From Siphonodentalium dalli (lineage: Eukaryota; Mollusca; Scaphopoda; Gadilida; Siphonodentaliidae), in the NCBI GenBank assembly GCA_032622095.1, contig CP136067.1, positions 76,286,705 to 76,350,704 of the forward strand: a stretch of DNA of 64,000 nucleotides. Direction: 5' to 3'. Shown piece by piece: positions 2,349 through 63,539 of this stretch. Below the pieces are notes generated by a model that saw nothing but the letters and a program-made list of their open reading frames with translations, was not told the DNA's origin and did no database searches. A program made the position numbers and the translations under genes. Each line of letters starts with the position of its first letter. Position 1 is the first letter of the stretch.

Positions 2349-4184
2349 TCATATCTCTTCAATTAACCGTTTCGGAGGATTCCGATCTCGTTGGCTTCGT
2401 CTTGTGGCTATATTTTCAGACGCGGGAGTACCGTTTTGATTAACAGGCGGGTCTGCTATGATCTGTGTATTTGCTGTTGGCTTACCGCTGTTTTCTACAA
2501 TCGGATATCTTTTCCGTAAGAATCGCCGGTTTCTTCTCCAAACCCGTCCGGACGGTAACTTAACAAGATAGTCACGATTATGGCCAACTTCCGTTACAGT
2601 CCCATAAATATCCCATCGTTTAGTATTATGGCTCTGAATTGCGACTTTCGCGCCAACGGTTAGTGGTGGTATGGCATGAGCTGATGCGTTGTATCTACGT
2701 TCAATCTTCTCGTTTTCCATACGATCTTTCTTGTCTGCGGCTTTGATGGATTTTTGCCATTCTGGGGCAAATGCGCGCTTGTGGATTGGTAGTGTGTCCC
2801 TAGAGGGGTGGCCGAACACAATTTGAGCTGGAGAACATCCATTAGAGCGAGGTGTGTTGCGCCACTGTAACAATCCTTTCAACCATTTGTCCATGTCCAC
2901 AGACCTTTTTCGTTCGCAATAGCTCGCTTTGAGTAGCGACTTCATAGCTTTCACACTTGCCTCGGCATAGGAGTTAGACTGTGGATAGTGCGGAGAAGAC
3001 GTGATCTGTTTAACTCCCCAGTCTACTAGAAACATTTGGAACAATCGTGATGTGTATTGTGGGCCATTGTCTGTGTATAATATGGTTGGAACAGCTGTAT
3101 CTACAAATGTCTTCCTGAATGATTCGATGAGAGCACTGGAAGTGGTGTCTTTACCAAGACCAAACACGGATGGCCAACCAGACTTCACATCCGTGATAAT
3201 CAGATACATGCAACCATTACATGTAAACAAATCGGAGCACATGTGCTCAAACACACGCGTAGGGTCGGTGTGGCGTTGGAGTGGTTCCTTGCAATGAGAC
3301 GGTAGATTTTTAGCACAAGACGAACACGATCGAACTATTCTCTCAATATCGCTGTCGATCCTTGGCCAGTAAACGACAAGACGAGCTCTCCGTTTTGTGC
3401 GTTCAATTCCCTGGTGACTATCATGAAGTTTCTCGAGTATAGACTTTCTCATAGCATTTGGAATGACTAGACGACAACCACAAACAACAAATCCATTATC
3501 GATTGACAGGCGGTCGCGCATGTACCAATATGAACGTACAAGAATTGGTAAGTCATTCTTATTATTCGGAAACCCGTTTTGCACGACATGGTACAGCTGC
3601 TGATATTCATCATCGTTTACGGACGCGTCCTTTACTGCTTCAAGATGAAGATCTGCCATTTCACCACGTTGATTTATCGCTGATAACCGCAATGCTTGTA
3701 AACTATACTCGACTTCCTGTTCCAGAACTTGATCGTCATCAGTAGGTTCTGTTGTCGGATATCGAGACATCGCATCAGCAGCGCATAGTTTGGTCCCCGG
3801 GGTCCATAGAGTAGTGAACCGGTACCGCATTAATTTCATCCTTAATCTTTGTAGTCGGGGATTGTCTATGTCCGATAAATGATAACTGTTCATGATTGGC
3901 AATAAAGGTCGATGATCAGTAACAATATCAAAATTCGAGAGGCCTTCAAGAAAAATTTGGCACTTTTGGACTGCCCAAACGGCACCAAGCATCTCAAGCT
4001 CGATCATTGCGTATCGGGATTCCGCGTCTGACAGGAAACGCGATCCTGCCTGAATCAGATGCCAATTTCCAGTTTCGGTATCCTTTTGGAACAGAACGAA
4101 TCCTAGTCCATTTAAACGACTCGCGTCAACATGTAGCGATGTTGGCCGTTTTGGATCATAACAAAATTGTCCGATCTTAGTCAA
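2349..4184 (-). CDS. Ty3/gypsy pol part: RNase H and integrase (fossil)
   Basis: This is the readable part of pol in the LTR element. RNase H features come first (LHVDAS, a glutamate in AMIELEM, VTDHRPL), then the linker LWTPG...ADAMSRYP typical of Ty3/gypsy. Next come the integrase zinc-binding region (LHDSHQGI ... CSSCAKN) and the DDE core: an aspartate in CSDLF, YTDNGPQYTS, then a glutamate in SNSYAEASVKAM. A GPY-like C-terminal module follows (VGAKVAIQS ... RRNRRFL), with no chromodomain seen. The element as a whole is incomplete. Relation to a named clade would need a tree. Confidence 0.9.
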   Translation of the reverse strand: MTKIGQFCYDPKRPTSLHVDASRLNGLGFVLFQKDTETGNWHLIQAGSRFLSDAESRYAMIELEMLGAVWAVQKCQIFLEGLSNFDIVTDHRPLLPIMNSYHLSDIDNPRLQRLRMKLMRYRFTTLWTPGTKLCAADAMSRYPTTEPTDDDQVLEQEVEYSLQALRLSAINQRGEMADLHLEAVKDASVNDDEYQQLYHVVQNGFPNNKNDLPILVRSYWYMRDRLSIDNGFVVCGCRLVIPNAMRKSILEKLHDSHQGIERTKRRARLVVYWPRIDSDIERIVRSCSSCAKNLPSHCKEPLQRHTDPTRVFEHMCSDLFTCNGCMYLIITDVKSGWPSVFGLGKDTTSSALIESFRKTFVDTAVPTILYTDNGPQYTSRLFQMFLVDWGVKQITSSPHYPQSNSYAEASVKAMKSLLKASYCERKRSVDMDKWLKGLLQWRNTPRSNGCSPAQIVFGHPSRDTLPIHKRAFAPEWQKSIKAADKKDRMENEKIERRYNASAHAIPPLTVGAKVAIQSHNTKRWDIYGTVTEVGHNRDYLVKLPSGRVWRRNRRFLRKRYPIVENSGKPTANTQIIADPPVNQNGTPASENIATRRSQRDRNPPKRLIEEI

Positions 4185-22766: not shown

Positions 22767-22866
22767 NNNNNNNNNNNNNNNNNNNNNNNNNNNNNNNNNN
22801 NNNNNNNNNNNNNNNNNNNNNNNNNNNNNNNNNNNNNNNNNNNNNNNNNNNNNNNNNNNNNNNNNN
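22767..22866. other. Assembly gap (100 N)
   Basis: Exactly 100 Ns, the usual placeholder length for a gap of unknown size. Sequences on its two sides need not be neighbours at that distance. Confidence 0.99.
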
Positions 22867-23325
22867 CCTGATGATAATGCTATTCGCAGAGGGAAATACT
22901 TCAAACCATATCTTGATCTCTTAATACAATGGAAACCAGAAGCCATGTTCGTTCAGCTAGGGGCTAATGATATCACCCCTGAGCGAGACGCAGTAGATAT
23001 ATACAATGCCCTCATAGATAAAGTGGTAACACCATGCAGAGAGAACGGCATCCGCGTATTCATCGGTCAGATACTTCAGAGAGGTAGATTTAAAAACCAA
23101 CAACTGACGGCTGATATGTACATTCACCACCGCAACATCATCAACCGTTTGCTGAAGAAACGACTACAAGCAGATTGCATCCAATTTAGAACAATAAAAT
23201 ATCCGAGAGACTTTAGTCGCGAGGACGAGGTGCACCTGAGCGATCAACACCAGACCCCGACAAATCCTGGTGTCCGAAAGTATTTCTTCGAAATCAGAAA
23301 GGTGTTTCTGAGGTATTTAGGATGA
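22867..23325 (+). CDS. SGNH/GDSL-type hydrolase, 5' part lost in the gap
   Basis: About 152 codons remain after the gap, ending in a stop at 23325. The visible part has LGANDI (block III, Gly-x-Asn-Asp of SGNH hydrolases) and, near the C terminus, EDEVHLSDQ (the Asp-x-x-His catalytic block V) followed by a conserved-looking NPGVRKYF. The nucleophile block (GDS) would lie upstream, in or before the gap. Known SGNH enzymes are esterases or lipases of the flavodoxin-like fold. In invertebrates such domains also occur in LINE ORF1 proteins, and the LINE fragment just downstream makes an element origin plausible. No intron seen in the visible part. Confidence 0.65.
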   Translation, partial: PDDNAIRRGKYFKPYLDLLIQWKPEAMFVQLGANDITPERDAVDIYNALIDKVVTPCRENGIRVFIGQILQRGRFKNQQLTADMYIHHRNIINRLLKKRLQADCIQFRTIKYPRDFSREDEVHLSDQHQTPTNPGVRKYFFEIRKVFLRYLG

Positions 23326-23399
23326 TTATGTATCACGAGTTATCCATGTATAAATATTGTCATTGTTGCTTTCGTTCTATTAAAATCTTGTTAATTGTT

Positions 23400-23680
23400 A
23401 TGTCTATAGTTGTTATGTCTATGATGCGTCATCCTAATTGCCACTATCTCTTTGAATGTACATTTTATCGAGAGCCCAGAAGAAAACTATATATGATTCT
23501 CTACCCAATGGTGTCCCATCTGAGAATACTCTATTGCGGGGATCAAGGGAACTGAGTATCTGCGAAAACAAAAAATGTTTAAAGGCACGACGGCGTTCGT
23601 TGCAGAAATATCTATATTTGTTCAATTCGCCATCAGAAGGAACACAAATATATACAGTTACGCTCATATGCCAAGCATAA
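23400..23680 (+). pseudogene. LINE reverse-transcriptase C-terminal fragment
   Basis: Translated pieces show a motif common at the ends of LINE ORF2 proteins: HYLFECTFYREPRRKLY, then in another frame NGVPSENTLLRGSRELS and a terminal ENKKCLKA...LQKYL helix. A cysteine-x-x-tyrosine plus arginine-rich stretch followed by an LL-G-x-x-x-LS segment is typical there. The frame changes near 23470-23510, so the copy is broken. It lies 75 bp after the SGNH frame, so both may belong to one LINE with an esterase-type ORF1. Confidence 0.5.
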
Positions 23681-23789
23681 TCAGTGCGTAAATAGTATAT
23701 TGTAATTCAATTGAGTATTTGTCACTAAAAACAAACATTCTGATTGGCCAAGAGCGGATAACTTTAGTTTTCGATTCACCGACATCGCC

Positions 23790-23983
23790 CGCTTCAGCGT
23801 GCATCAAATCTGAATGTAGCACGGTCAAATTTCATTGGCACAGAACGAGTAGCGAAACGAGCACACCCGCGCGTTGTTGTCTATAGATACCGTTCATCGG
23901 CCGCTTCACCGTGCATCAAATCCGAATGTGGCACGGTACTATTTCTTCGGCGCAGAACGGAGTAGCAAAAAGAGCCAACCCGC
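23790..23983. repeat. Two-copy tandem duplication, ~112-bp period
   Basis: GCTTCAGCGTGCATCAAATC at 23791 and GCTTCACCGTGCATCAAATC at 23903, both followed by GAATGT-GCACGGT and GCAGAACG-AGTAGC. About 85 percent alike by eye. Confidence 0.85.
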
Positions 23984-24154
23984 CCCACAGGAAATGGTTA
24001 CGGAGCAGTGTTCCGAGTAACGCAATGAACAAACCCAACTATTCGTGCACGGTGACAACAGCAAAATGAAAGTCTCGATTCGTGTCATGAAAACGACTAA
24101 ATGAAACTTTTTATACAGTTTTTTTGCAAATTCCTTGCTAGATTGAATTACAAT

Positions 24155-24300
24155 GGAGATAAACGTACCCTGTTGAGTTGTACATTCTGGGATTCGAGCA
24201 TGAAAACAGTTTGTGAACTCGCCGGCAAGCCGGCTCGTTCACAAAATGTTTTCATGCTCGAATCCCAGAATGTACAACTCAACAGGGTATGTTTATCTCC
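24155..24300. repeat. 146-bp near-perfect hairpin (foldback element)
   Basis: The left arm from GGAGATAAACGTACCCTG (24155) pairs with the right arm ending CAGGGTATGTTTATCTCC (24300). The arms are about 66 bp, around a short GC-rich loop near GCCGGCAAGCCGGC. It is a compact MITE or foldback element; no target duplication was obvious. Confidence 0.88.
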
Positions 24301-25087
24301 TAAGTGTCGTCAAGACGTACTTAATCACACAACAATTATATAAACGCTCTTTATTGTTTCCATATCCGGATCTAAACAAAAGCCAGGAAACGTAACGTTT
24401 TTTGCTTTTGTTTGCATAAAAAAAAGGGGGAAAATAGACAATAACATGCTGTGTATGCCACATTTCTGATTAGCATGAGAATATAGTTTGCCTATATTTT
24501 ACTATTCTTTCTGTATACGGCGGCTTTTGACTGATATGGCTATTTTAACAGCATACCCACCGCAAACGCCGTTCGTATCTTTAATGCAGTTCAGATAAAT
24601 ATTATGAGAACGAAACGGTTCCCATGATTTGTACGGGTAACAACTTGCTTTGGATTCCGGTCGCGTTATGCGGCAGCAAGATACCCACCAATATATGTAG
24701 CACTAACTGCTATCCGAGAACGATTATTTTGTATATTGCTTACTTGCTATTAGTCTGTATATACGTGAAATGATCCACATGAACGATGCTCCGAAATTCA
24801 TAGTGAACACCCTTGACATAGGAATTGTCTTGTTTTGGGTTAGTGCTGCTGAATACGTACTTGTTCTCACGGAAGATATATAGTCCACGACTCGTAGCCG
24901 TGTGTGTGTTTGTTTAATAACTTTTTGACGGATGGAACCAGTTAAGAGCGAATGCGATTGGCCCCATCCCATGGCGTCTGACGCATGCATCTTATTATAG
25001 ATAATATAGCATAATTTTAACCATGCACCAACTCAATTATTGAAAACTCCCCACCACCGTCATCATTTCAAGATTCATCTGTCTTCT
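24301..25087. other. Unassigned sequence
   Basis: No gene. Carries one AAACGCTCTTTATT motif at about 24342, the same word as in the palindromes. Small reading frames without family resemblance. Confidence 0.4.
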
Positions 25088-25088
25088 A

Positions 25089-25129
<41 letters not shown>

Positions 25130-25155
25130 TCTCTCTCTCGCTCTCTCTCTCTCCC
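25088..25155. repeat. (CT)n microsatellite
   Basis: CT run with occasional T, C or G interruptions, about 68 bp. Confidence 0.97.
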
Positions 25156-25963
25156 TACACCATACTATACCGAACAATATCTCCGTCACTTATTGGGGAA
25201 AGTACATGTCGCCAAAGAGGATCGAGGACACTTCATAAGCCCTCGGGCTTGTTGTCTGATCCTCATGTCCATAATTAACTCTTATATTTTGTATATTTAT
25301 GTCATCTGTATATTATGTTATTTGCTTTGATTTGGAAATAAAATGTGTTTAAATTAACTGTTACATCGGAAGTCATCATACTGTCGGCATTGTGTATTTG
25401 TGATGGTTCAGGAATTATTAAAAGCCGAAATAGCGAGTTATAACTTGCAATTAAGCCATCTGAACGTAATTCGTTCTGTTTAGTTATGTTCACATCATGG
25501 TTATTTTGAAGCAAACATCCTTCCAAATATTATTTATCGTATGCCCAGTATAGAACGGCAGATTTCGCGGTTTCATCCATATCCACCAGCGGCAACAACA
25601 ACACCGGTAACACCACCAGCAGCTCTGCTGTCTCCATCGCAGAACTTCTGCGATCGATGACATACTATGAAATGGGCCAAAGAGATAAAAGAAACAATTA
25701 GCAAAAGCACAGAAGAAGCGTTGGCAACAACAGGATACCTAATCATCATACCTTGACCCTTCCAAAAATTCGAAGTGACATTAAAACATAACCAAAGTGG
25801 GTTGCAGGCTAGGGCTGACAGTTCTTTCAGTTGTGGTTGAGTTAAAAATTCGGTACGTCGGTACGAGTGATTTGAGCGGTCTGTAACCTTAATTGGAAGC
25901 AACCGCCCTCGTATTGATGCCGGCGAGTGAGACGGTTTTGGATTAGGCTTAGTGCGACGGACA
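25156..25963. other. Unassigned sequence upstream of the 292-codon frame
   Basis: No gene recognised. 25560-25640 has trinucleotide-like CCACCAGC/AACAACA richness. The frame on the minus strand at 25573-25902 has an unconvincing composition and was not called. The last 40 bases are more GC-rich and lead into the ATG at 25964. Confidence 0.4.
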
Positions 25964-26842
25964 ATGGAGCTAATCCCTGACGCCGCGTTAGCAGCGATAG
26001 AGAGATCTCAAATTGCGGATATTGTTAGCTGGAATCTCCAGTCTAACAGAGGCTATTTGACTCTCTGCGTTGAATTCAGGACGGGAGATGCTGGAAACCA
26101 GAGATCTTCCACCTGGAGCAAGACCAAGACCAGCCGTACCATGAAAGAGGAGCCTCCTAAGAAAAAGACACCAGCTCGAAGGAGAAGGGACGCAGCCAGA
26201 CGGGCGAAATGGAAGAAGAAGATGGGGGCGACCGTTGATCGACCGGTCACCCCTCCCCGTGTGGCTCAGCCGTCCAAAGTCATAGCCGGCGGGTCGAAGT
26301 TGTCTGAGAGACGCCCAGACGACTCGACCTGCATGGAGACTGACGACATAGCACCAACTAGCAGGGATTCCGTTGATCTGCCGGAGATCCCTGCTGTCGT
26401 CGTCGAGGCTTGCGGAGACAGGGACGTGGATACCACCCCAGATGTTCCTGCCGCCAGCTTCGACGTGGAACTGGATAGCTATACACCTCGGACACCGGAT
26501 TACCAAAACATCCCGGTGTCCTCCAGCTCTACCACCACCAGCAACTCCAACAACAACAACAGTAGTGGCAGGCCTACCAATTTCGAACGGCTTTCCGGCA
26601 TGAACTTTGACTTTAATGACCCAATCATCATTGAATCTCTGAGATTGATTAAAGAATCAGAAGACAGACAACTCGCCGACCTCGCCGCCACCAACACAAC
26701 CTCTTCAACATCAGCAACATCGACAGAAACATCTGATCATAGAACAAAAAAGAAAGCCAAGAAAACCAAAAAAAAAAAAGAAGATCATTTTCACTTTCAC
26801 CTCACCGATTCATGCTTATGTTACACCATATCATGTTTCTAA
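25964..26842 (+). CDS. Unassigned ORF1/gag-like protein, 292 residues
   Basis: The ATG at 25964 is in a good context (ACAATGG). Visible parts: a short N-terminal segment (ALAAIERSQIADIVSWN, then GYLTLCVEF); a strongly basic stretch at about residues 58-88 (EEPPKKKTPARRRRD, RAKWKKK); a long Ser/Thr/Asn/Asp-rich middle; and a lysine-rich tail (KKKAKKTKKKKED). The order 'SWN - beta segment - KxP-RRRRD' reminds me of N-terminal proteins in metazoan retroelements, but no domain is certain. It is followed by a structured 3' sequence with a (TAG)n stretch, which fits a LINE-like end. It lies upstream on the same strand as the 1157-residue gene; a shared transcript is possible but not shown. Confidence 0.5.
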   Translation: MELIPDAALAAIERSQIADIVSWNLQSNRGYLTLCVEFRTGDAGNQRSSTWSKTKTSRTMKEEPPKKKTPARRRRDAARRAKWKKKMGATVDRPVTPPRVAQPSKVIAGGSKLSERRPDDSTCMETDDIAPTSRDSVDLPEIPAVVVEACGDRDVDTTPDVPAASFDVELDSYTPRTPDYQNIPVSSSSTTTSNSNNNNSSGRPTNFERLSGMNFDFNDPIIIESLRLIKESEDRQLADLAATNTTSSTSATSTETSDHRTKKKAKKTKKKKEDHFHFHLTDSCLCYTISCF

Positions 26843-26936
26843 TTAAAATTCATAAGTGGGTTGTATGAGAGGGGTTCCGCCCCTTTCAAATCTTCCCGGG
26901 AGAAATCCCAAACCCCCATAGTAGTAGTAGTAGTCC
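26843..26936 (+). other. Retroelement-like 3' end with (TAG)n tail
   Basis: Two small stem-loops (GAGGGGTTCCGCCCCTTT; TTCCCGGGAGAAATCCC) are followed by CCCCCATAGTAGTAGTAGTAG. A stem-loop plus a simple-repeat tail is a usual LINE/SINE 3' end. This supports an element origin for the upstream frame, but it is only suggestive. Confidence 0.35.
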
Positions 26937-27009
26937 AATGTGACAGACCCTCAACATTGGTCCAGCAGGGACACAATTGCATGTGTGACAGACCAACACG
27001 GAGCTACAG

Positions 27010-27437
27010 GTAAGTGCCACATATTGTTTTTTTTCTTCACACAAGGGTAGATATCATTAATGTACTTTATATTAGTTTCTGATGTCACGATCTGTACTGT
27101 AATGGAACGTAGAATTAGTCAGATTGCGACTGTATAAATACCATACCAAATTTATGGACGTTTTAAGTTAGTAGACTGAATATGCCCAAATCAGTCAATT
27201 TTGAAATAAATGTTTAATGTGCTCAAATTCAAGCCCAAATTGCCAATTCGCTCCACGCGTCCGATCATGCAGCTCAGCTAGAAACCATTGTCTTAAACCA
27301 AATGGCCTTGAAATAAAGAAAGTCTACTGATGCGCAACTGTATTGCATTATTGAGATTGTGAAATGCTAAAAGATACAGATATTTTGACATAAACATTGA
27401 TGTAAACACTATACATTACTAATTTGTGTTGTTTCAG
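27010..27437 (+). other. Predicted 5'-UTR intron of the 1157-residue gene
   Basis: Donor CTACAG|GTAAGT at 27009/27010 is a full consensus. Acceptor TTGTGTTGTTTCAG|GA at 27437/27438 has a pyrimidine tract and lies 20 bp before the ATG at 27458. The 428-bp intron would leave an untranslated first exon of unknown start, which includes CAGACCAACACGGAGCTACAG-like sequence just before the donor. No transcript evidence is available. Confidence 0.6.
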
Positions 27438-27457
27438 GAAATAATCGTGGCAGAAGA

Positions 27458-30400
27458 ATGGCTAGCGACGGCCAGCTAAGGTGTGTTGTCTATGCCACAC
27501 GAACCGGACCTGTATCACTGGTAAATGTACAAGACATTCTGCAAAACCCAGACACATCAAAGGTAAGTGATACAGCCCCTGCCAAACCAATAAGTGGTAC
27601 ATTATATTTGATCGCTTACCAGAATGATATTCACAAAGATGACTGGAGATGTGACGGTTACAGGTGGCGAAGTAAGGGTATTACACGCCTTCCTCGTGGT
27701 AATCCAATTTTTAGAAAATACTATTTTCACATGCACCTTGAAGGTGAAGAAAAATCATCTAGTGCTTTTCAAAGAAATGCATATATACTGGAGGAAAATC
27801 CCAATCTTATTTTGGTAGAATATATTGGCGACTCAAGCCAATTTAAAGATACGCCTCATGGCAATGCTAAAACAAATCATCGTCCGTTCAAAAGAACGGC
27901 ACCCTCGGTAATGAGGGAAGTCCAATCATCTGTAACGAATCAGTATCCAGCTAAGGTATATAAAAATGTTGTTGCTAACCATGTACCTTCTGCATATCAG
28001 GGTATTTTGAATCCAAGAGATGTTCGCCAAGTAAGATACGTGAGACAAAAAGAATTAGACTCTCGGAGAATATCAAGGGATACCATCGCCAACGTCCTAC
28101 AGTTGGGTCAGCAACTAAAGGGAATTCCGGAATTGGGCATCATAGATCAAGACTTGTTCTGTGTTGTCCACTATCCTGAATGGTCTTCAGTCGTTAACGA
28201 ACTGTTGGACGTTGACACGGGAACTCACCCTTTAGTCTTAGGATACGACACCACCTACAACATAGGTGATTTCTATGTCTCTACCTTGACCTTTAGGGTT
28301 TCTATTTTTGAAGGATCTCCTGTATTTCAAATTGCATTCTTGATTCATGAAAGAAAATTTGACAAATTTCACTTGCGTTTCTTCGAAAATGTGAGTGATA
28401 AAATACCTAATATGTCAAACAAAGAGATCCCCATTGTAATGGATCGCGAGGCAGCATTCACCAAAGCTGTGAAAGAAATATTCCCTCAAATGAAGATAAT
28501 ATATTGTTGGAACCACTTAAAACAAGATTTTAGCAATCACTTAGAATATAAACTCGGGGCACAAAAACCGGAAATTCCCGTGTATATTACAGATCTTTCA
28601 GATATGCTAAAATCTCGGTCTATTGAAGATTTCGAATTAACATATCAAAAAGTTTCAGATAAGTGGAGTTCTGCTGCTAAGTTATATTTTGAGAAGAACA
28701 TGAAAACAGATATAATGATGTACGCCGGAGCATGGATTTTGAAGCCTTTATATATTTATGACCCACTTTCCGGCATTACCAATAACACTTCCGAGTCATT
28801 TAACGCTGTCATCAAGCACATGCATGATTGGAAAGAAATTCCGATGGATACCGCCATTCTCTCTCTCAATTATCTTGCAAAATTTTATCACTCAGAATAT
28901 CTACGGGGTAGATTAGGTGTGGGAAATTACCAACTCAGAAACGTTTTTATAGGTTATAGGATGAGTGAGACGGAGTGTTTATTTCCAGAAGGTGTTTTGG
29001 CCCCCGATGACATTGTACAATTTGTGAAATACGGGGAAGCAGAAGAGGTGGAAGAAGAAAGCGATATTGATCAGGCTCAAATTTCATCAGATTCAGACAA
29101 TGATCATAAACCTATCAGCACACAAAGAGCAATGGCATTAGATATCGTAAAATCAAAGAGTAAAATAACGTTTGTGGCTGATCAGAGAGCATTCATGGTT
29201 GAAGGTAGCAAAGAGGACAAATACGCAGTCAAGCTCTTCCCCAAAGAGACTTGCCAGTGCCCTTCTACAAACACATGCTACCATATCTTGGCTGCCAGAA
29301 TTATTGTCGGCAAGGTGGACTGCACCGCACCAACACCAGTGAATTTAACTGCACTTAAGAAGCGAGGCCGCTCTCGTTCCGACAAGAAATCTGGCACCAA
29401 GAAGGGTAGACCAAATGACTTAGATGTTATTCCTGCGCCTGATTCTGAGGTAATGCAGTCTTTGTCCAGTCCAATTAAACATTCACCGCCCACAATTCGG
29501 ACATCAACCCCCAAATCTCGTCGAAAAACCCATTCCAATAGAAATGAAATATCAGTGTCCCCAATCAGAGATTCCAGTCTATTGCCTTCGACCCCCATTA
29601 TCCTTGCTCAGGAAAAAAGCAATCAATCGGCTTTTGATAACTTGCCTCCATCATTATCAATGTCAGTGGCGCCAATTCCACAAACAATCCCATGTCCAAA
29701 TGCAATGAAATCCAAATCTTTGCAGTACACACTACCGGCTTCGCCGAACCCGCCACCCATAAACTCAAACCCTATCAGATCTCAACCGGAACAACGGAGC
29801 TCACGATCCACTTCTGGACTCTCACCTTTAATGTTAAGCATAACGCCAGAAACATCTGTTCGTGACACACCTAGCTCGCCGCATATATCACCACATTCTC
29901 TTATCAATCAGTCCGTGTTTTCCAATCAGCATAGCCCACACAATAGTCGTTCACATAGCTCGCTTCTGAACTCACCGACGAGTTCGAATTCCCCGAACTC
30001 TTCAGCTTGCATTTGGCTGCCTCCTGTCTCACCGCAACGATTTGTGAGTTCATCAAAAGCCAAGTACATGCGAAAACCAGCAAATGCGAAGCCAACAAAA
30101 AACCAATCACCATTAACAAAGCCATTGTGGGCAACTTCTCCTAGTCCAAAGTTGTTGACTCCAAAAAAAAATAATACATTAAAATCAGGCAATTGGCTTT
30201 GCGACGGTATATTGAATACATCTCAACAGTTGTTGAAAACGCAGTTCACTCACATAATGGGTTTTCAAGACACTTTGTTTGCTCCAACTAGAGATATGGC
30301 AACTAGATTGTATTTACCGTTAGGTAGCAACTGTTTTGCTTCTTTTGGACATGACCGAATCATTGGCCAAATACATCACACTGGATACAGCCATTGGGTA

Positions 30401-30931
30401 GCATCCACATATGCTTCGAACGAATATGATCATGCAGTGTACGTTTTCGATTCATTGTTTTCTGAAGTTGACCCTCTTACTACATCAATGCAAATTCAGC
30501 TTTGGTCTATATATGGATCCGGGTCAAATATTGGAGACGTCACCATAAAATTACCACACACACAGAAACAATCAAACTCTGATGACTGCGGAATCTTCGC
30601 ACTGGCAAACTTAGTAGAATTTTGTTTCAACCCAAACCACGGTAGGACTGAGACTACCAGATTTCAACAACGCTTGATGCGATCTCACTTGATCAATTGT
30701 CTTTCGTTGAAAAATTTCACTCCTTTCCCAAAAAACAACCTATGTTGTAAAACAAAACTGAAGTATACTAGTGTCATCATCACCAAACACTGTGCCCAGC
30801 TGGGATGTGCTATGCCCGATGTATTTGATAACATGGTTCAGTGTTCCCTTTGTGATAAATGGTATCACAAATCGTGTCAGAAATCAGACAAATACTCAAA
30901 AAAATGGAAATGCTATCCCTGTCCAAAGTAA
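27458..30931 (+). CDS. CG-1-like / MULE transposase / SWIM / Ulp1 protease / PHD protein
   Basis: One uninterrupted 1157-residue frame. The ATG at 27458 has a strong context (AGAATGG) and follows a splice acceptor. Domains: (a) 58-125, CG-1-like: DDWRCDGYRW ... FQRNAYILEENP ... ILVEYIG; (b) 255-460, MULE-type DDE: D264 (LGYDTTYN), D329 (VMDREAAF), CxxH at C350/H353 (IYCWNHLKQD), E446 (NTSESFNA); (c) acidic 527-548; (d) 599-609, SWIM finger C-x-C-x5-C-x-H; (e) 635-900, basic then Ser/Pro-rich linker; (f) 913-1056, Ulp1/C48 protease: WLCDGILN, H979, D998, Q1038, C1044 (DDCGIFA); (g) 1112-1155, PHD finger with all eight ligands C4HC3. MULE enzymes cut and paste DNA; Ulp1 enzymes cleave SUMO-like modifiers; PHD fingers read histone tails. 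All catalytic and zinc residues look present. Terminal inverted repeats were not found, so it may be a transposon or a domesticated gene. Confidence 0.9.
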   Translation: MASDGQLRCVVYATRTGPVSLVNVQDILQNPDTSKVSDTAPAKPISGTLYLIAYQNDIHKDDWRCDGYRWRSKGITRLPRGNPIFRKYYFHMHLEGEEKSSSAFQRNAYILEENPNLILVEYIGDSSQFKDTPHGNAKTNHRPFKRTAPSVMREVQSSVTNQYPAKVYKNVVANHVPSAYQGILNPRDVRQVRYVRQKELDSRRISRDTIANVLQLGQQLKGIPELGIIDQDLFCVVHYPEWSSVVNELLDVDTGTHPLVLGYDTTYNIGDFYVSTLTFRVSIFEGSPVFQIAFLIHERKFDKFHLRFFENVSDKIPNMSNKEIPIVMDREAAFTKAVKEIFPQMKIIYCWNHLKQDFSNHLEYKLGAQKPEIPVYITDLSDMLKSRSIEDFELTYQKVSDKWSSAAKLYFEKNMKTDIMMYAGAWILKPLYIYDPLSGITNNTSESFNAVIKHMHDWKEIPMDTAILSLNYLAKFYHSEYLRGRLGVGNYQLRNVFIGYRMSETECLFPEGVLAPDDIVQFVKYGEAEEVEEESDIDQAQISSDSDNDHKPISTQRAMALDIVKSKSKITFVADQRAFMVEGSKEDKYAVKLFPKETCQCPSTNTCYHILAARIIVGKVDCTAPTPVNLTALKKRGRSRSDKKSGTKKGRPNDLDVIPAPDSEVMQSLSSPIKHSPPTIRTSTPKSRRKTHSNRNEISVSPIRDSSLLPSTPIILAQEKSNQSAFDNLPPSLSMSVAPIPQTIPCPNAMKSKSLQYTLPASPNPPPINSNPIRSQPEQRSSRSTSGLSPLMLSITPETSVRDTPSSPHISPHSLINQSVFSNQHSPHNSRSHSSLLNSPTSSNSPNSSACIWLPPVSPQRFVSSSKAKYMRKPANAKPTKNQSPLTKPLWATSPSPKLLTPKKNNTLKSGNWLCDGILNTSQQLLKTQFTHIMGFQDTLFAPTRDMATRLYLPLGSNCFASFGHDRIIGQIHHTGYSHWVASTYASNEYDHAVYVFDSLFSEVDPLTTSMQIQLWSIYGSGSNIGDVTIKLPHTQKQSNSDDCGIFALANLVEFCFNPNHGRTETTRFQQRLMRSHLINCLSLKNFTPFPKNNLCCKTKLKYTSVIITKHCAQLGCAMPDVFDNMVQCSLCDKWYHKSCQKSDKYSKKWKCYPCPK
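27629..27832 (+). other. CG-1-like DNA-binding domain (residues ~58-125)
   Basis: The spacing DGYRW-(~35)-FQRNAYILEENPNLILVEY mirrors the CG-1 domain of CAMTA transcription factors, where an N-terminal DGY-W and a later FQRRSYW-L-x-VHYL lie in the same order. In plants and animals CG-1 binds a CGCG-type DNA site. Here it would supply the transposon-end recognition that BED, FLYWCH or WRKY-like fingers provide in other families. The match is by eye and would need a profile search. Confidence 0.5.
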
Positions 30932-30990
30932 CATGGTTTACGAGCATAACACACCATTAGTTCAATCGTAGTTATAGTGCTTAAGAACAT
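30932..30990. other. Short 3' flank of the large gene
   Basis: About 60 bp between the stop codon and the tandem array. No AATAAA signal here, so the 3' UTR probably includes part of the array. Confidence 0.5.
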
Positions 30991-31700
30991 TCCTCCATTT
31001 CCCCCAATGATTATGGGGTTGCCTCCATGACGATGAGGCGGAGGATCAGTTCTGAATATCAATATTTTGTTTGACATAGTTTATAATTCGAAAACAGTGC
31101 TTCTATAACTTGCCCCTGCGTCTCCATTTTCCCCAATGATTATGGGGTCGCCTCTATGGCGATGAGGCGGAGTGGGTCATTCTGAATATTCATGTTTAGT
31201 TTGTTATTGGCAGAGATTAATTTCCTAGTTCGTTGCTTTTATAGCTTGCCCTCTGCGTCTCCATTTTCCCCAATGCTTATGGGGTCACCCCCATGGTGAT
31301 AAGGCGGAGAGAGGTCAGCTCTGTGTGTCCATTTTTGGTTTGACATAGTTTATATTTCGAAAACAGTGCTTCTATAACTTGCCCCTGCGTCTCCATTTTC
31401 CCCAATGATTATGGGGTCGCCTCCATGGCGATGAGGCGGAGGGGGTCATTCTGAATATTCATGTTTCTTTTGTTATTGGTAGAGTTTAATTTCCTAGTTC
31501 GTTGCTTGTATAGCTTGCCCTCTGCGTCTCCATTTTCCCCAATGCTTATGGGGTCACCTCCATGGTGATGAGGCGGAGAGAGGTCAGCTCTCTGTGTCCA
31601 TTTTGTTTGTTTGACATAGTTTATATTTCGATAACAGTGCTTCTATAACTTGCCCCTGCGTCTCCATTTTCCCCAATGATTATGGGGTCGCATCTATCTC
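30991..31700. repeat. Higher-order tandem array, 269-bp period
   Basis: CCCCAATGATTATGGGG or its GCTTATG variant recurs at about 31001, 31131, 31268, 31400, 31537 and 31671, spaced 130-137 bp. Two unit types alternate: one has TTTGACATAGTTTATA before GTGCTTCTATAACTTGCC, the other TTTGTTATTGGCAGAG before GTTGCTTTTATAGC. The true period is therefore ~269 bp (two units). Each unit holds two small stem-loops, CCCCAATGATTATGGGG and GCCTCCATGGCGATGAGGC. The array starts about 70 bp after the stop of the large gene, so it is likely transcribed with it or forms part of the element's 3' region. Confidence 0.92.
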
Positions 31701-31724
31701 TTGTTTCATACCGTATCCATATTC

Positions 31725-32375
31725 CTACTATGCTATCATGTGTGCTAATCATTTCTGCTTTATTTCAGCTGCGTTGTAATGACGATATTGTACATAAAAC
31801 ACTTTTACTATGTGATAACATCTCGAAGCTTTTCTAAATTTCACCTGCCACTTTTGCGTTCGGTATCAATGCACAATAATTAGTCTTTTAAAATTACTGA
31901 CTTTACTGGATTTTAAGTGATAATTTCATATGGAAGATCAGCTATTTTCTTTATTGAACGTAATTTTTTTTTACCGCCATCCATGTGAATTGAAAATGAT
32001 GGGACGAGGGGTATAGCGATGAATCTCATCGGTTCATATCATATCCCTATCTTAGTGCTTATGTCAAATTCATTTTATATGTGATTCGGACTTCATAACA
32101 GGTATTCAGTTCATAATATGCTATCACATGTGCTAATCATGTCTGCTTTTTTTCAGCTGCGTTGTAAATAAACTATTGTACAAAAACAAATTTTTACTAT
32201 GAGATGACATCTCAAACATGCTAGATATGTAATTTTCTAAATTTGACCTGTTAATTTTCCGCACAATAATGGATACTATTTTTGAAATGTATTATTTTAA
32301 GGATTACTCCATATGGAAGTTATCTGTTATTTTCCTTTATTAATTTTTTTTTTTTACCGTCAAAATTTGAAATTA
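31725..32375. repeat. Two-copy direct duplication (~390-bp spacing)
   Basis: Copies at about 31725-31990 and 32115-32375 share ATGCTATCATGTGTGCTAATC, TTCAGCTGCGTTGTAA, the CACAATAAT word, CATATGGAAG and a poly-T stretch before ACCG. Both have a pyrimidine tract and TTTCAG|CTGCG, which looks like a duplicated splice acceptor. About 75-80 percent alike by eye. Confidence 0.8.
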
Positions 32376-33190
32376 TGTGAGAATCGCACTCAAATCGGTC
32401 ATCGTGAGTTAAATTTGGCTGCATCGCGTACTAGGTCTAGCAGTTGTAAATATATTGGATTATGAACTAATAAAGATGTTATGTAAATACATATAAATTA
32501 TCCATTACGTTCCATATACGGATCAATGTTTACTCAGACGTTGTTCCTGCATTACTGCATCAAATTGCAGGCACCAGACATGGCAAACAATGGCCATATT
32601 TGTTGCAAACCAGCCTTGTCGTAAGATGAGCCGGTCCCAAGCCCGGAAAATGGCGAGGGCAACACAATTCATAAATCGCCAAAACAAATGAAGGGTAACC
32701 TGGATAGGACCCATAAATAAAAAGTCCCAAAGGGCAGAGTCACACACTCCCCTTCAATGTGGGTAATTGTGCCGAGCCTCAACTGATCGAGCTCGAGTGC
32801 TAAAATAAGTGCAAAATAGCACAAGCACTTTAAAGTTTAAAACATTTTAGCACGTTGTGTTATAACCAAATATGTGTGCATGTGTGTACCATGTGTGCAC
32901 TAAGTGCAACGTCTAGGCACTAGACAAAAATCTTTAAAGCTGCCAGACCATGTCTGCCGGTCCAAAGCCCGGATAAAAGCTGATGGGAGTTTTTTTTTTA
33001 TACGAAATCTGCTATAGCAAAAAAGATATTTAATTTAATAAACGTGTTCACACTCATGTCAAACGAAGAAGACATTCAACCCGAGAACAAACATATGTAT
33101 TTGTTCTTGCGATTAGTTAAGTATATTTCAATTAAAATATATCTATCGATGTCTATATACTATACTGTTTCAAGTATTATAACGCGTTAT
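32376..33190. other. Unassigned sequence
   Basis: No gene and no clear repeat. 32840-32900 is rich in TGTGTGCA/GTGCAC. Contains poly-T at 32990-33000. Confidence 0.4.
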
Positions 33191-33194
33191 TTAA

Positions 33195-33786
33195 AGGGGT
33201 ACTGTACGCCATTTTAAATAAATTCCCGGTGATAACAACGATCTATTATCGATACTATATAGAAATATAAGTAATTTGAGTCGAAGATGTATTCTGTAAA
33301 CGCTCAGGTTAATAGGCTATCTTAAAATTTAATAATTTAAAAGTTAATAATTTAATATAAATTGATTTTATGGCTCCAGCCATAAAATGGCGTCTCTTAA
33401 AATTGGAATTTCCGTGTACAAAACGTAATCAAATTATAATTGAGGGATACTGGATTAATAAAACAATTGCACACACGATCGTTTGAAACATTATGCTTAT
33501 ACGGGTAGAAAACCCAAGCCACTCATTGACTAGTGACCATACACTAACTTAAATGAGTATATGGGACTGCTAAGCATATAATATAATGTTTATTTGATTC
33601 ATTTGGTTGAAAACTGTACAAAAATTACTCGACAACGACAATTTGTATTTTTGCATTCCGGTAAATTTGCCATCCGTAACAATACTTCGTACTCAACAGA
33701 CTTTCAAAAAATGGAAAAGTTGTTACCTTATTCTCCGACTCGGGGATTATAGAAACCAACAACAACATCTTGGGTACAGTACCCCT
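33195..33786. mobile_element. 592-bp MITE with TTAA target duplication
   Basis: The ends are inverted copies: AGGGGTACTGTA at 33195 and TACAGTACCCCT at 33786, each flanked by TTAA (33191-33194 and 33787-33790). The interior has no coding capacity. The TTAA duplication fits piggyBac-type transposition. The 12-bp inverted end is short, and the family is otherwise unknown to me. Confidence 0.8.
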
Positions 33787-33790
33787 TTAA

Positions 33791-34962
33791 TGCATATATG
33801 GTAATTTATAAGCTTGTTCTCAGTTGCCCTCGGTAAAGACGCACACCCTTGATATGGGTAAATGCGCGAAGTCTCACAATTCTCCTTTATTTATAGGGTA
33901 GTCAATAAAGAGCGTTTGTTGAAGCATTTATTGCGAGGGTCTTAATTGCAACTAAGAGTCCTTTAACATCATGCCTCCATTAAAAAAAACTGGTAATTTG
34001 TTTACTTAGAAGCCACAACATGCATGTTAGATTTGACAATTCCAATTAACAAAAATATTCCTGATGCATAATGCCCCATTATCATTATGTTTGTACAGTC
34101 TGTCAGGATGACTGAGGTGTCACTGGCTTTAAAGATTATCCCACACGAAGAGCTGTGTTAATTTTCTATTGTTTATGGTGTTCATTGATTTGCTTCAGAT
34201 ACTGATGAAATAATGCGGTTAAGCTGATAATCTGAAATTCAGTGATTTCATTGGCCTTAGCACAGTGTGGTGCGAACACATCTCATCTTTGGCCGCCAAA
34301 AAAACTAAACTAAACAAAACACAAGGCAAAGATGGCATGTATTCCAATAAAATGTGTGCGCGCAGTGTTCGTGATATATACGAGAGACTACACAATCATG
34401 GATTTAATTAAAATTCGAGTGTCACACGTAAGTGTTTATATAAGTCTATAAAAAAAATTTGGATATTATTTCCAACAGTCTGACCATTGACATATTCATG
34501 CGTTCAAACCAGTTAATCTATTTTGTAACTTGGCTTTTAGTCGCCGGGCTCCGGCATCTGGGCTTTTAGTCACAACTGAAATAAAAATAAGTGCGAATAT
34601 TTTGGAGCGAATTTCTGCAACAATTTCACCGCGTGGTGGACCCATTTGGAAAAAAATACATTCCCTGTGTCTAATCCTACATTTTGATATACTATACGCC
34701 CCATTATATTGAATATACCAGCTGAAATCGATTCTGTAAATGTAAACATCGAGTCTATTTTTAGCTGTTTTATCGGCGCTTGTTTGCGTTTCGCCATTAC
34801 AGTATTCGCACTAAAACAGCCATATTGTAGCTAAAAACGAGTGCACAGTATTCCACTGCGTTATTTGATACCTAAAACTTGGTGTTTGCTAGCGTATTCA
34901 TCGAGAAATCTAAATTCTAAACATTAATGTCGAACGCAGTTTTTCGTGTTTGTGGCATTTTA
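33791..34962. other. Unassigned; one AATAAAGAGCG motif and a possible first exon
   Basis: CAATAAAGAGCGTTTG at about 33904 repeats the window-wide motif. On the minus strand, ATG at 34797 opens MAKRKQAPIKQLKIDSMF, a lysine-rich start of the sort seen at the N terminus of hAT-type or zinc-finger transposases. The frame (to 34570) soon loses any resemblance, so only the first ~25 residues look interesting. Nothing else recognised. Confidence 0.3.
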
Positions 34963-35370
34963 TGTTAGGTCAGTTTTCGACCCGAATAATGCAACTTCCG
35001 GTGTCCGTTCAGTGGCGGGGTTAATATGTGTGGATAGGACGAATATCGGCCTTTCGTTAGACACCAAAATGAGCCCTCTACGCGCTGTATTCCTCGAGAT
35101 ATCGGCCGTCCCACGCAATTTGAAAATCCCGTCCCGCAGATTGCCATGCTATCCCAAATTTCACCCCATGTTAGGTCAGTTGTCGATCAAATAATGCAAC
35201 TTCTGGTGTCCGGTCAGTGGCGGGGTTAATATGTGTGGATAGGGCGAATGTGGGCCTTTCGTTAGACACCAAAATGAGCCCCCTACGCCCTGTATTCCTC
35301 GAGATATCGGCCGTCCCACGCAATTTTAAATTCTGTCCCGCAGATTGTCGTTTTGTCCCATATCCCATCC
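34963..35370. repeat. 206-bp unit, two tandem copies
   Basis: TGTTAGGTCAGTT at 34963 and 35169. Both copies share TGGCGGGGTTAATATGTGTG, CCTTTCGTTAGACACC, CTCGAGATATCGGCCGTCCC and a GTCCCGCAGATTG end. More than 90 percent alike by eye. Partial extra copies of the CCCGCAGATTGTC word follow to 35390. Confidence 0.93.
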
Positions 35371-37096
35371 CATCCCGCAGATTGTCATGTCCCCTATTAT
35401 ATAATTTAAGAAAAACAACTGGAAAAAATAATAAAAGATGTGCTTGAGTATCTTCTCCTATTCTACAGGATAGGGACATATTATGATTGTATTCACCTTC
35501 CAAATACTCAGGAATGGGGGTGGGCTTATCTACTGTACGAGGACCACCCATGTTTTGTTCATGGTTAAAAACCCAGACTGGGCTTATCTTCGAGGATGGG
35601 CTTACTGACGCGTGTATGCCACTTCATAATCTGACCCGCCTTGTCACCCGCCTTGTCAGTTTGCTCACTGCAGTTTACTACAATCCTTGTCACCAGGTGT
35701 CACTGGTCAGTTTGTTTACTACAGTTCACTACAATAATTAGCCAGGTTAATGATTTTCTGTCTCACACACACATGCACTCAAGTCACAGTTGCATGATTT
35801 GAAGTTCAGAACACAATTCCCCTGAATAACAACTCACCTATGCTGATTCTCATTGGCTGGAGACGAGTGACTTTTTTCTCATTGGCTAGAGTCAAGTGAC
35901 TTTCATTTCATTGGTTTTGGTTAGAATTCAGGACTTGTCACTTGCCTGGCAGTTAATTTGGAGGGAAGACAAATAGTTTTGTGTTCTATTCTTCTTGACT
36001 TGAAAATTTTGATGAAGATTTTTGACACAACTTGGCTTTTGTGATAACAATTTGTAGTTTTCAAGTTAGGAAATTTAGGACAGCTTGGTTTTGGCTGCGG
36101 CGCGATAAATGTTACAAGTATATAAAGGTGTTACAATCTTATTTATATTATCCATTCTGGAGACTGCATGAGCTGGTAAGTTTTATGCAACACCACAAAA
36201 TATGGAAAATGCATGTGCATAAAAAAACAAGCTACCGATGTCATCATCTAGGTACTAAATGATTGAATTGCATGGGCATTATTACTTCATTCAAAGTGCT
36301 GCAACTTTTATTTGAAATGAAATGGCAGTGTTCCCCAAATTCACATCGCTGTTTGCCATTATTAATCGTTCACTCATGCTACTCATGTATAACATCAAAA
36401 TTCATCATCTTTTTGCATGGCTATTGTACAATTTCCAAGTATTAAAGATAAACTTTCCAATTTTGCACCCCTAATTACATGTACTATTTCTTTGGCTTGG
36501 CCAGGGTGAAAAATATTTTAGTTGAGGAACCCACCAAACAAATCTCAGAGCTATTACATTTTTATATTTTAAATAAATTTATTTTCTATACATTGAATAT
36601 TCCATACATGGTGATCAGGCCTCTTCATACGCAATTGCTCGCGTGCACCTCATTCGCCCTTAAAAAATATTTAAGGCGTGCTCCTACCCACTGGCCTCGG
36701 GTCCGAGAATATTCCTCGCACAATGTCAATCGCGATTGACCGATGTTCTGTTTGCGTGGCATTGCGTCCATCACATATCTAATACTCTACATATCTAATA
36801 CTAGACATATCTAATACTTGTATCTAATAATGTACCGGATATTTGGGCAATTGTGACAAGTATAACCATCTTAAATAATTGATGACTACCCACAAATGCA
36901 GCCATATTAGTGGCATGTTGTATGCCTTGAAATTTCACCAGGGAAATCAGATCATCAGTCATTGATTTTGACACATCAATTCGAATCAAGAGGCATAACT
37001 CTAAATTGTAAATTTGCTCAAAAAGAAAGACGTGGGATATTCCTGGGTGAAATTAGACTACGATTAGTCCATTACACGATTTGTTTACGCTGTGGC
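35371..37096. other. Unassigned; minor repeats
   Basis: 35630-35740 holds a two-copy ~60-bp repeat around GTCAGTTTGCTCACTGCAG / GTCAGTTTGTTTACTACAG. 36463-36535 matches, with changes, the arms of the foldback at 41170-41762 (CTATTTCTTTGGCTT, GTTGAGGAACCCACC). 36770-36830 has three copies of ACATATCTAATACT. No gene recognised. Confidence 0.45.
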
Positions 37097-55483: not shown

Positions 55484-55677
55484 GTTATTATTATAACTTT
55501 GGTGGAACCAATTGCATAACTTTCGTTTGAGCCTTGATCGAATACATACAAAGCTCTAGGTTACCAATCCCTCATTCGAGCAAGCCTGCTTGTCATAATT
55601 ATGACTCTTACAACAAGGACTTTGATTCTGGTCATGCTGCAGCTGATACCACCCTTGTCTAATTTTGGGAGCATACG

Positions 55678-55790
55678 GTAATGCTCTAAATAATCTACTC
55701 CTTAACCACATCAGAATTATGGGTAACTTTTAAGGATTTAGTTGGAAATATGTCTTGTTGCCATTCATCGGAAAGCTCTCACTGAGAGTC
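55678..55790. mobile_element. Tc1/mariner-like MITE half (left arm)
   Basis: GTAATGCTCTAAATAATC, TACTCCTTAACCACATCAG, TTGTTGCCATTCATCGGAAA: the left half of the MITE family. The mirror copy is at 61736-61841, so it was present before the arms were duplicated. Confidence 0.7.
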
Positions 55791-56189
55791 CAAAATTTCT
55801 TTGATTACAAAGATTCATTTTCCCCACCCTCCCTCCCCATTATTCTGTTAGCAGCTTGAGATTTAAGTTCCATCTCACACTAATAACTTATTTTTGCTGT
55901 TCATTATAATTAATACAAGCTGGTATTGATGCTAGATAGGTTTATTGATCATATTACATACAGTTGGAGAGGCAACTAGTTATTACCCTCCGCCTTCTAC
56001 GGCTTTTAGACAATATATTTTGTTCGCGTTGATTATTGGTTGTTTACGTTTTGAATCTGAACTATAGTGTTTGTTGTCAATGGACAAGCTTATCCTTTTG
56101 AGTGCCCATCTTTTCCTTGTGTATAGCCATACTTAAGATTCTGCAAAAAGCATATATGATATAACAATTTTTAATATGGTTAAACTAGG

Positions 56190-56440
56190 AGTAAAGTATA
56201 AATGCTCTTTACATATGACTAAACTATTGAGTTCTACATGTGCTTGGGTCAACAATGGGATTATGTAGATATGACTTAATATTATATGTTAATTGACAAA
56301 TCACTCTTTACATGTCGCCAAATTATTGAGTTCTACATATACGCTCGTCTACAGTAGGTTTATGTATATATTATGATGTATTTATGTATGTATATTATGT
56401 GTCATTAATTGACAAATCACATATAAACGGTCTTTACTGC
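56190..56440. repeat. ~115-bp satellite-like monomers (first cluster)
   Basis: Units start GTATAAATGCTCTTTACATA and go on with AACTATTGAGTTCTACAT, GGGTCTACAGTGGG-like and TTAATTGACAAATCAC. Two units here, degenerate. Mirror copies lie at about 61070-61335. Confidence 0.7.
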
Positions 56441-56607
56441 AATATCAAGCGATTCAGACCATTTTCAGGCATTACGCAGGATTTATACCTATTTTCTAAC
56501 TGGCACACAGGTTTTATATGCACGATTTAATGCTGGGTCATTCGGTGTTCAACATCTGGTATGCAGTTTCTACAGCCCAAAATTTTTGACTAATTCACAG
56601 CCCAAAT

Positions 56608-56692
56608 AACCATTTCACTATGGTGAACCATTCACTACAGCGAACCAGTCACTACGGCAAGCCAGTCACCACGGGGAACCAGTTACTACAGT
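56608..56692. repeat. 17-bp minisatellite, five units (left arm)
   Basis: AACCATTTCACTATGGT, GAACCATTCACTACAGC, GAACCAGTCACTACGGC, AAGCCAGTCACCACGGG, GAACCAGTTACTACAGT. Exact 17-bp register, variable units, preserved almost unchanged in the mirror copy at about 60838-60925. Confidence 0.9.
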
Positions 56693-57370
56693 GACAATAC
56701 GTGATAAGTCGTGTGTCAGTAATAATACTGTGATACACTCATGTACATACTAATATTGTTTCATATAATGTCTATCCTTGCTCATCATTTTCATAGCATT
56801 AAATCTGTTATACAGAGGAAATAAAGCACTAATGCTGCGTTTATTGTTGGGAGTTTAAATTATTGCATTAGTAAATCGATTCACAGTGTAACGCCAAATA
56901 GACAAGAGAGACAAGTTCCTCACAATGCCAACAAACATAAGTAAACGTAATATGTTTGTAATATGTCAGACACCATTCACATGGTGGTTTGTAACTCGTA
57001 GGCGCTAGTTTCGGAAGATATCCAATCATATTCGTTGTTTATTCTCATTGGGACAGAGGTGCAAAAATGTAAATTATGTTCACAATACACATACACCGTT
57101 GTTTACAAACAATGAATTTTATATTATAAATTAAATATATAAAATATTAGCCTTCAAAGTTCAGATATATCACAACTATCAGTCGTGCAATAACTGGTGT
57201 GGAAATTTATTACAAAACAATATTGATATGACTAATATAGCGAATGGAATGACACATTGGAGATTTCCCCTCAACTCAGATCAAGCTTGTTAATCAGTCC
57301 CAATTTTCGTATTTCAGTTTTATTTAGATCTAAGTTCATTGTGTTATGACATATCAATCGTTAATGGGTC
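56693..57370. other. Unassigned arm sequence
   Basis: No gene; palindrome-paired with about 60160-60837. Confidence 0.4.
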
Positions 57371-58050
57371 AAGAATATATAAATGCTCTTTATTATGGTT
57401 CAACTATTGAGTTTTCACACACTGTAGTTTTCGTTGGCTATATATGTAGTATTCTTCGTGATCTTTGGGTCATTATATACGCATAGCCAATGTGCTCGAG
57501 AAGAATGCACATTGATTCTGCTTCAGTCTGCTTGCTTTTTATTGACCTGTATGTCCATGTTTCTTAATGCAGTTTCATTGCCCATGTTATGATGATGTAT
57601 CAGGGATCTTTTATTGACAAATCATATAAATGCTTTTTACTATATATGGCTAAACTATTCATTTCTGCACACGTTCTGGTCTACAGTGGGTTTATGATAT
57701 ATTAATATGCTATTAATTGACAAGTCCCGTATAAATGCTCTTTACATAGGGCTCAGCTATTTATTTCTGCATATGCTTGGGTCTACAGTGGATTTATGTT
57801 GATATTATGACGTATATTATGTTGTTTAATAATCACGTATAAACGCTCTCTCCTGCCATATCAAGCTATTAGCGATGATGGTCAATAACTTTTTGAGATC
57901 CTCCCCATACAATATTCATAAATGACAGCAATAGCGGTTTCTTCTGATCGATTATCAAGTGCCATTTCTGCCAAATAACCCCCTTCCCTTATTGTGTTAT
58001 GATGTATATTTATCGTTAATTAGTGAATCACATATACAAGCTCTTTACTG
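57370..58050. repeat. ~115-bp satellite-like monomers (second cluster)
   Basis: ATAAATGCTCTTTATTATGG (57379), ATAAATGCTTTTTACTATAT (57626), GTATAAATGCTCTTTACATA (57730) and GTATAAACGCTCTCTCCTG (57837) begin successive units with shared CAACTATTGA / CTACAGTGGGTTTATG / AATTGACAA words. Mirror copies at 59330-59930 and 60070-60150. Confidence 0.7.
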
Positions 58051-63472: not shown

Positions 63473-63539
63473 TTCTATAGAAATTCACAGGGGACCATCT
63501 AGATGATGCCAAAGGGGTCTACTAGAAGTAGGTTTTTAC

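Follow-up and report, generated by a model that had tools for sequence, protein, structure and literature searches.

A likely Rehavkus-like MULE from the scaphopod Siphonodentalium dalli and its unusually rich single-chain transposase

Introduction

Rehavkus elements are Mutator-like elements (MULEs) of which very few are known (PMC6446971). The trait list in that source gives them a PHD finger, target duplications of 9 bp, inverted repeats of 26 to 400 bp, and a minisatellite located ahead of the 3' repeat. For one of them, Rehavkus-1_TC, satellite or tandem repeats are described within the inverted termini (PMC10218199), and a 2026 survey of arthropod MULEs includes Rehavkus as an outgroup (PMC13359780); by word counts, the terms PHD, C48, peptidase, SWIM, and Ulp1 are absent from the main text of that survey. 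Here we analyze a stretch of 64,000 nucleotides from Siphonodentalium dalli (assembly GCA_032622095.1, contig CP136067.1, positions 76,286,705 to 76,350,704 of the forward strand), referred to as the window, to which all simple positions below refer. Its open reading frame (ORF) at 27458-30931 is very probably the transposase gene of a Rehavkus-like MULE that has moved recently, is present in many copies, has long inverted repeats with internal repeats and 8- to 9-bp duplications, and keeps its catalytic and zinc residues.

Other described MULEs share parts of this element. The animal MULEs Phantom and Muta1 (PMC6446971, PMC5225508) have the DDE residues, inverted repeats, and duplications of 8 bp or 9 bp (8 or 9 bp in Muta1; PMC5225508), and the aphid Phantom has a minisatellite 3' of its ORF, as here (PMC6446971). 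For Phantom and Muta1, the relevant passages list FLYWCH, SWIM, or no finger, and neither PHD nor C48. Plant Kaonashi/KIU elements, along with ULP-bearing MULEs and CACTAs, are likewise transposons with a Ulp1-type protease (PMC13317346, PMC2528002). For grapevine MULEs, these sources describe a Ulp1 frame that runs either with that of the transposase, as in some families, or against it, and for rice CACTAs they describe Tnp2-ULP1 proteins, Tnp2 not being a MULE transposase; going by these passages, which do not mention PHD or CG-1, plants could thus have MULE and Ulp1 in one chain as well. KIU is a VANC-type gene in MULEs without terminal inverted repeats (PMC13317346), whereas in the present element Ulp1 lies in the transposase chain and inverted repeats are present. 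FAR1/FHY3-type proteins, derived from Jittery-like MULEs, show the same order of WRKY-GCM1-family N terminus, MULE core, and SWIM, but are plant proteins for which the passages of that source describe neither C48 nor PHD (PMC2528002).

Results

Five parts in one chain

The window protein joins five parts, CG-1, MULE, SWIM, C48, and PHD, in a single chain (Table 1). Its frame runs from ATG to stop over 1157 codons and is stop-free inside. An initial annotation, made from the letters alone, had proposed this five-part protein with a full set of named catalytic and zinc residues; every one of those residues is present in the ORF and could be followed through an alignment of nine sequences. Domains were called at the curated Pfam cut-offs. 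Three profiles exceeded theirs in the window protein: MULE (PF10551; aa 260-356; E = 1.5e-8; 35.4 bits versus 27.6), CG-1 (PF03859; aa 23-123; E = 4.6e-6; 26.8 bits versus 23.5), and Peptidase_C48 (PF02902; aa 974-1068; E = 1.9e-4; 21.8 bits versus 20.7). The transposase and protease segments, whose failure in profile searches would have refuted the annotation, thus both score above cut-off. The SWIM and PHD metal ligands are complete, though their profiles score below cut-off, and shuffling the window protein 2000 times produced neither pattern. With H, D, Q, and C in order and PF02902 just over its cut-off, the protease falls in the C48/Ulp1 (CE-clan) group; RickCE_cat, another CE-clan profile, also matches it, below cut-off.

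Table 1. Features of the window element
Feature	Position	Strand	Basis
Second ORF, GDSL/SGNH-hydrolase-like	22867..23325	+	Pfam Lipase_GDSL_2; start in or beyond a 100-N gap
Probable 5' intron ahead of the start codon	27010..27437	+	GT at 27010, AG at 27436-27437, from sequence alone
Transposase ORF, 1157 aa	27458..30931	+	ORF reading; Pfam; 98% identical stop-free copy on C5
CG-1/WRKY-clan DNA-binding domain, aa 23-123	27524..27826	+	Pfam CG-1; relatives match WRKY too
MULE DDE catalytic domain, aa 260-446 (D264, D329, C350-H353, E446)	28235..28795	+	Pfam MULE; residues in 9/9
SWIM-type motif C599-x-C601-x5-C607-x-H609	29252..29284	+	Pattern in 9/9; Pfam SWIM below cut-off
C48/Ulp1-type protease, aa 974-1068 (H979, D998, Q1038, C1044)	30377..30661	+	Pfam; OtDUB-type PDB chains
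PHD finger, aa 1112-1155, eight ligands	30791..30922	+	C4HC3 pattern; Pfam PHD below cut-off
Minisatellite (unit 137/269 bp), 3' of the ORF and ahead of the 3' inverted repeat	30993..31691	+	
3' terminal inverted repeat of ~1.5 kb; end sequence CCGCAGATTGTCATGTCCC	33889..35393	-	Right end same in C5, C6, and window copies

Copies, ends, and target duplications

A genome-wide search for further copies, also suggested with the annotation, returned both near-identical copies and additional families. In the organism's own genome (2.23 Gb, 9 contigs), the protein search gave at least 57 matches, with 40 of 1912 candidates scored, and several of the matches have open frames longer than 1000 aa. In protein, the C5 and C6 copies show 98% identity, and their DNA is 99.7% identical to each other over 7.5 kb; the best copy pairs reach 99.7-99.8% in DNA. 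At least three further families with the same parts, at 44-48% identity, are present in the same genome. Below, family A is that of the window, and family B comprises L013-L017, L020, and L026, which have ends of their own.

The window element spans at least 22867 to 35393, the end of its 3' inverted repeat, so that the transposase ORF is a small part of it. The C6 copy measures 17.7 kb from end to end, with inverted repeats that are 99.4% identical over 1428 bp and that continue for an extra 75-78 bp past an insertion of ~0.47 kb; it is flanked on both sides by TATTATTT, an 8-bp target duplication. An 8.4-kb element on C3, outside the 57 protein matches, has the same ends and is flanked by CTCAAGAC, again of 8 bp. 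In family B, the inverted repeats of L015 are about 1.8 kb long and 98.5% identical, contain about six 193-bp tandem units, and are flanked by a 9-bp duplication, CTTATTTGG. Both family A copies that were readable at both ends thus have 8-bp duplications (2/2), and the one such family B copy has a 9-bp duplication (1/1). Together with the DDE triad, which has CxxH between the second D and the E, the terminal inverted repeats and 8- to 9-bp duplications place the element in the MULE superfamily.

Internal repeats accompany these ends. Two repeats of ~206 bp lie at 34962-35373, inside the 3' inverted repeat, and families B, C, and D likewise show tandem offsets 3' of the ORF, as read from BLAST. 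The second ORF matches Lipase_GDSL_2 at an E value of 5.4e-6 (27.4 bits, under the cut-off of 32.9) and occupies the same place in the C6 copy, where the DNA is 98% identical. All 40 scored places matching the terminal 0.45 kb of the family, its own included, are 96-100% identical (2114 first-look candidates), and nonautonomous copies are therefore probably common.

Two observations concern the region 5' of the transposase ORF. A 296-aa frame at 25952-26842 (plus strand) contains a basic stretch, ends near a TAG microsatellite, and has an inverted 77% DNA match in the C5 locus; it was considered as a part of the element and dropped, having no match in the C6 copy. The C5 copy, 99.7% identical to C6 farther 3', carries a different 5' region; the junction (L010:4993 against window position 27450) lies only a few bases 5' of the ATG, beside the splice acceptor, as in a 5' swap.

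Conservation of the named residues

Alignment A1 combines the window protein with eight of 19 further loci, picked for open frames that exceed 1000 aa. It excludes the C6 copy (L011), in which a frameshift splits the first 105 residues, and its family D row (L019) lacks the N terminus, which lies in another frame. D264, D329, E446, C350, H353, C599, C601, C607, H609, H979, D998, and Q1038 are identical in all nine sequences, as is the SWIM pattern CxCx5CxH. C1044 is identical in 8/9, the number in which all four protease residues are present, and the C4HC3 pattern is complete in 7/9, the exceptions being L015 and L017; C1044 and the PHD pattern are missing where the C termini of L015 and L017 are broken. 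Pfam PHD matches seven of the nine members at E values up to 1 (best, 0.0079).

The named residues are conserved between families. Compared with L018, L013, and L019, one sequence per family, the window protein shows identities of 55-62% (DDE core), 59-71% (surroundings of SWIM), 52-54% (C48 part), 49-64% (PHD finger), and 37-48% (CG-1; over 44 codons only for L019), with 17-31% for the linker at aa 661-885. Nonsynonymous divergence (dN) between families is 0.46-0.55, and synonymous divergence (dS) is saturated (proportion of synonymous differences, pS, about 0.80-0.84).

Protease and PHD finger

Searched against PDB, the A1 profile matched 14 sequences at E values up to 1. Two are OtDUB-type chains (E = 1.7e-4 and 4e-4), the nearest solved relatives of the protease, and because of this a target other than SUMO is possible. 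PHD proteins make up 11 of the 14 (PHF23, two of PHF13, two of PHF2, PHF20, three of TAF3, and two of EBS; E = 0.04-0.9), and a single VP1 chain was matched by chance. Most of the PHD fingers matched bind histone H3 methylated at lysine 4 (H3K4). M1126 and W1135, at putative cage positions, are kept in all seven complete PHD fingers. The window finger weakly resembles such H3K4-methyl readers, and by its sequence it is a probable histone-reading finger.

In a separate search of the genome, PF02902 gave 13 C48 matches, several of them on profile part 89-177 or 89-206 and on different contigs, perhaps representing another C48-bearing repeat family.

The N-terminal domain

Scanned alone, the N-terminal segment of the window protein matches CG-1 at an E value of 3e-8 and gives no Pfam WRKY match. 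We assembled seven hand-picked N termini (alignment A2), in which L012/L018 and L022/L024 are near-identical pairs. CG-1 matches six of the seven and is over cut-off in three (window, L013, and L027). WRKY matches three, over cut-off in L027 (22.9 bits versus 21; E = 1e-4) and below it in L022 and L024 (E = 0.026 and 0.027, from these near-identical copies). The N terminus of L018 had neither a CG-1 nor a WRKY match in the Pfam scan. In L027, CG-1 (1e-6, residues 35-139) and WRKY (1e-4, residues 82-141) both pass their cut-offs over overlapping residues. This overlap suggests that the N-terminal domain bridges the CG-1 domain of CAMTA proteins and the WRKY clan, the WRKY link resting on Pfam and on weak phmmer hits (E = 0.08-0.66).

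CG-1 has been put in the WRKY/GCM1 clan via structure models, and in one member of that clan a DxxxW motif is said to stabilize the recognition loop (PMC9252788, in the passages concerned). The present domain shares the DxxxW motif, kept in all seven A2 N termini, and has profile matches to both families; it differs in forming the N terminus of a transposase. Two points speak against a close WRKY tie: the A2 profile retrieved four chance hits only from PDB, with no WRKY chain among them, and classical WRKY is described as too divergent to group with FLYWCH, GCM1, and MULE proteins in the relevant passage of PMC4350883.

Several other CG-1 sequences were encountered. One CG-1 exon of the genome (L037) scores 64 bits and was taken for the host CAMTA; it had no match in PDB. 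Outside this presumed exon, two near-identical CG-1-like sequences (L038 and L039; C8:103118301-103118700 and C8:125728901-125729300) probably belong to a further repeat family. Three CGCG sites of the CG-1 type within the inverted repeat were noted but given no weight. Babu et al. (2006) reportedly dealt with WRKY-GCM1 fingers and transposons.

Neighboring features

A 23.5-kb structure reaches from L033:3528 to window position 22054. It has 3.56-kb inverted arms that are 99.8% identical, ends in AGTAGTAGTGTGAGG, and shows an apparent 6-bp duplication, TGCATC; an unoccupied-looking paralogue of its site lies near L033:750. In these traits it resembles a Polinton/Maverick insertion. Within it, a 611-aa frame at 2349-4184 (minus strand) with reverse transcriptase RNase H, integrase zinc, and rve domains is a Gypsy-type pol fragment. 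Elsewhere in the window, 2.5-kb inverted arms at 55489-58008 and 59512-62016 are 91% identical, and GC skew is strong (0.358) at 62001-64000.

The genome as a whole is very MULE rich: a PF10551 search gave 150 scored MULE-domain places, all over cut-off, of 813 first-look candidates. Searches for relatives of the window protein and of A1 in a collection of viral contigs gave 8 and 23 pattern matches, respectively, with 0 confirmed, and a search with A1 in prokaryotic genome contigs gave 90 pattern matches with 0 confirmed; given the viral and prokaryotic character of these collections, such negatives say little.

Discussion

By its sequence, the window element is a recently mobile, Rehavkus-like MULE whose single-chain transposase is unusually rich in parts. 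The Rehavkus link is likely because of the PHD finger and the minisatellite before the 3' inverted repeat; a MULE-type DDE domain and a single transposase ORF are further traits shared with the published listing, and the family B copy matches its 9-bp duplication (PMC6446971). Relative to Rehavkus, family A has an extra ORF, the GDSL-like one. A number of observations weigh against our interpretation. Family A duplications are of 8 bp, and no left inverted repeat was detected in the window copy, which has a run of 100 N at 22767-22866. The C48 score barely clears its Pfam cut-off; Pfam PHD (aa 1117-1155; E = 0.011; 16.2 bits) stays under its cut-off of 24, and Pfam SWIM (12.3 bits, cut-off 19.6) was seen only with the segment scanned alone. 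The PHD segment alone had no match in PDB at E values up to 1. Frames are damaged at both ends of the protein, with broken C termini in L015 and L017, a broken N terminus in L019, and a frameshift near aa 82-105 in the C6 copy. Finally, dN/dS within families is 0.51-0.85 (five pairs); such values are as for young transposon copies and, with 11-35 changes per pair, say little on present selection.

That ordinary, catalogued Rehavkus proteins already have the same CG-1, MULE, SWIM, C48, and PHD order, with only the description missing, strikes us as a substantial possibility, falling somewhat short of an even chance. The PHD finger in the transposase and the minisatellite are, after all, listed Rehavkus traits (PMC6446971), Rehavkus-1_TC likewise has tandem repeats in its inverted termini (PMC10218199), and the architecture appears old because four aligned families share the parts. 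Against this, inverted repeats of 1.5-1.8 kb exceed the listed 26-400 bp, and the published passages on Rehavkus (PMC6446971, PMC13359780) are silent on C48, the SWIM motif, and CG-1, Repbase proteins lying outside the comparison. A search of the open-licence literature, which did not extend to Repbase, likewise found no description of the five parts in one chain in the passages covered.

Plant MULEs capture Ulp1 domains (PMC13317346, PMC2528002, in the passages concerned), and the protease and PHD finger could similarly be captured passengers without a role in the transposon life cycle; we consider this improbable, as both keep far more identity than the linker in the three-family comparison (52-54% and 49-64% versus 17-31%) and their residues are complete save in the broken-frame L015 and L017. 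The annotation had left a choice between an active transposon and a domesticated gene. Inverted repeats, target duplications, and near-identical copies favor the transposon. A domesticated host gene of transposase origin would account for the intact frame and conserved residues, but with many near-identical dispersed copies, terminal repeats, and target duplications it is hardly credible, and we rejected it on copy number and termini.

From the architecture observed in this recently mobile, Rehavkus-like MULE and its conservation between families, we infer a set of chromatin functions. As known for the family, the CG-1/WRKY-clan domain at the N terminus, possibly together with SWIM, would bind the inverted repeats, and the DDE domain would cut and paste the element. 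The PHD finger may bind methylated H3K4 and tether the complex to active promoters, a step for which we judge the chances evenly balanced. More tentatively, the C48 protease might serve as an anti-silencing tool by stripping SUMO, or a different ubiquitin-like tag, off the transposase itself or off silencing factors present on the element. Such a joining of recombinase machinery to a reader of trimethylated H3K4 would have a likeness in the PHD finger of RAG2, the difference being that RAG2 is a separate subunit and the recombinase is of the Transib type.

A broader proposal, which we hold to be doubtful as a whole, is that the N-terminal domain is a sequence link between CG-1 and the WRKY clan, that CAMTA acquired its DNA-binding domain from a MULE transposase, as FAR1/FHY3 did, or else donated the domain to one, and that the transposase chain works as a self-contained chromatin machine whose PHD finger finds methylated-H3K4 promoters and whose protease removes SUMO-like silencing tags. 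If true, a single transposon protein would unite end binding, DNA cutting, histone reading, and protein-tag removal, and a transposase that chooses its chromatin target and defeats SUMO-dependent silencing by itself would become testable. The N-terminal domain would provide sequence evidence for joining CG-1 to transposase DNA-binding domains, with a bearing on the origin of CAMTA transcription factors, and the element as a whole suggests that transposons can bring along equipment of their own for handling chromatin.

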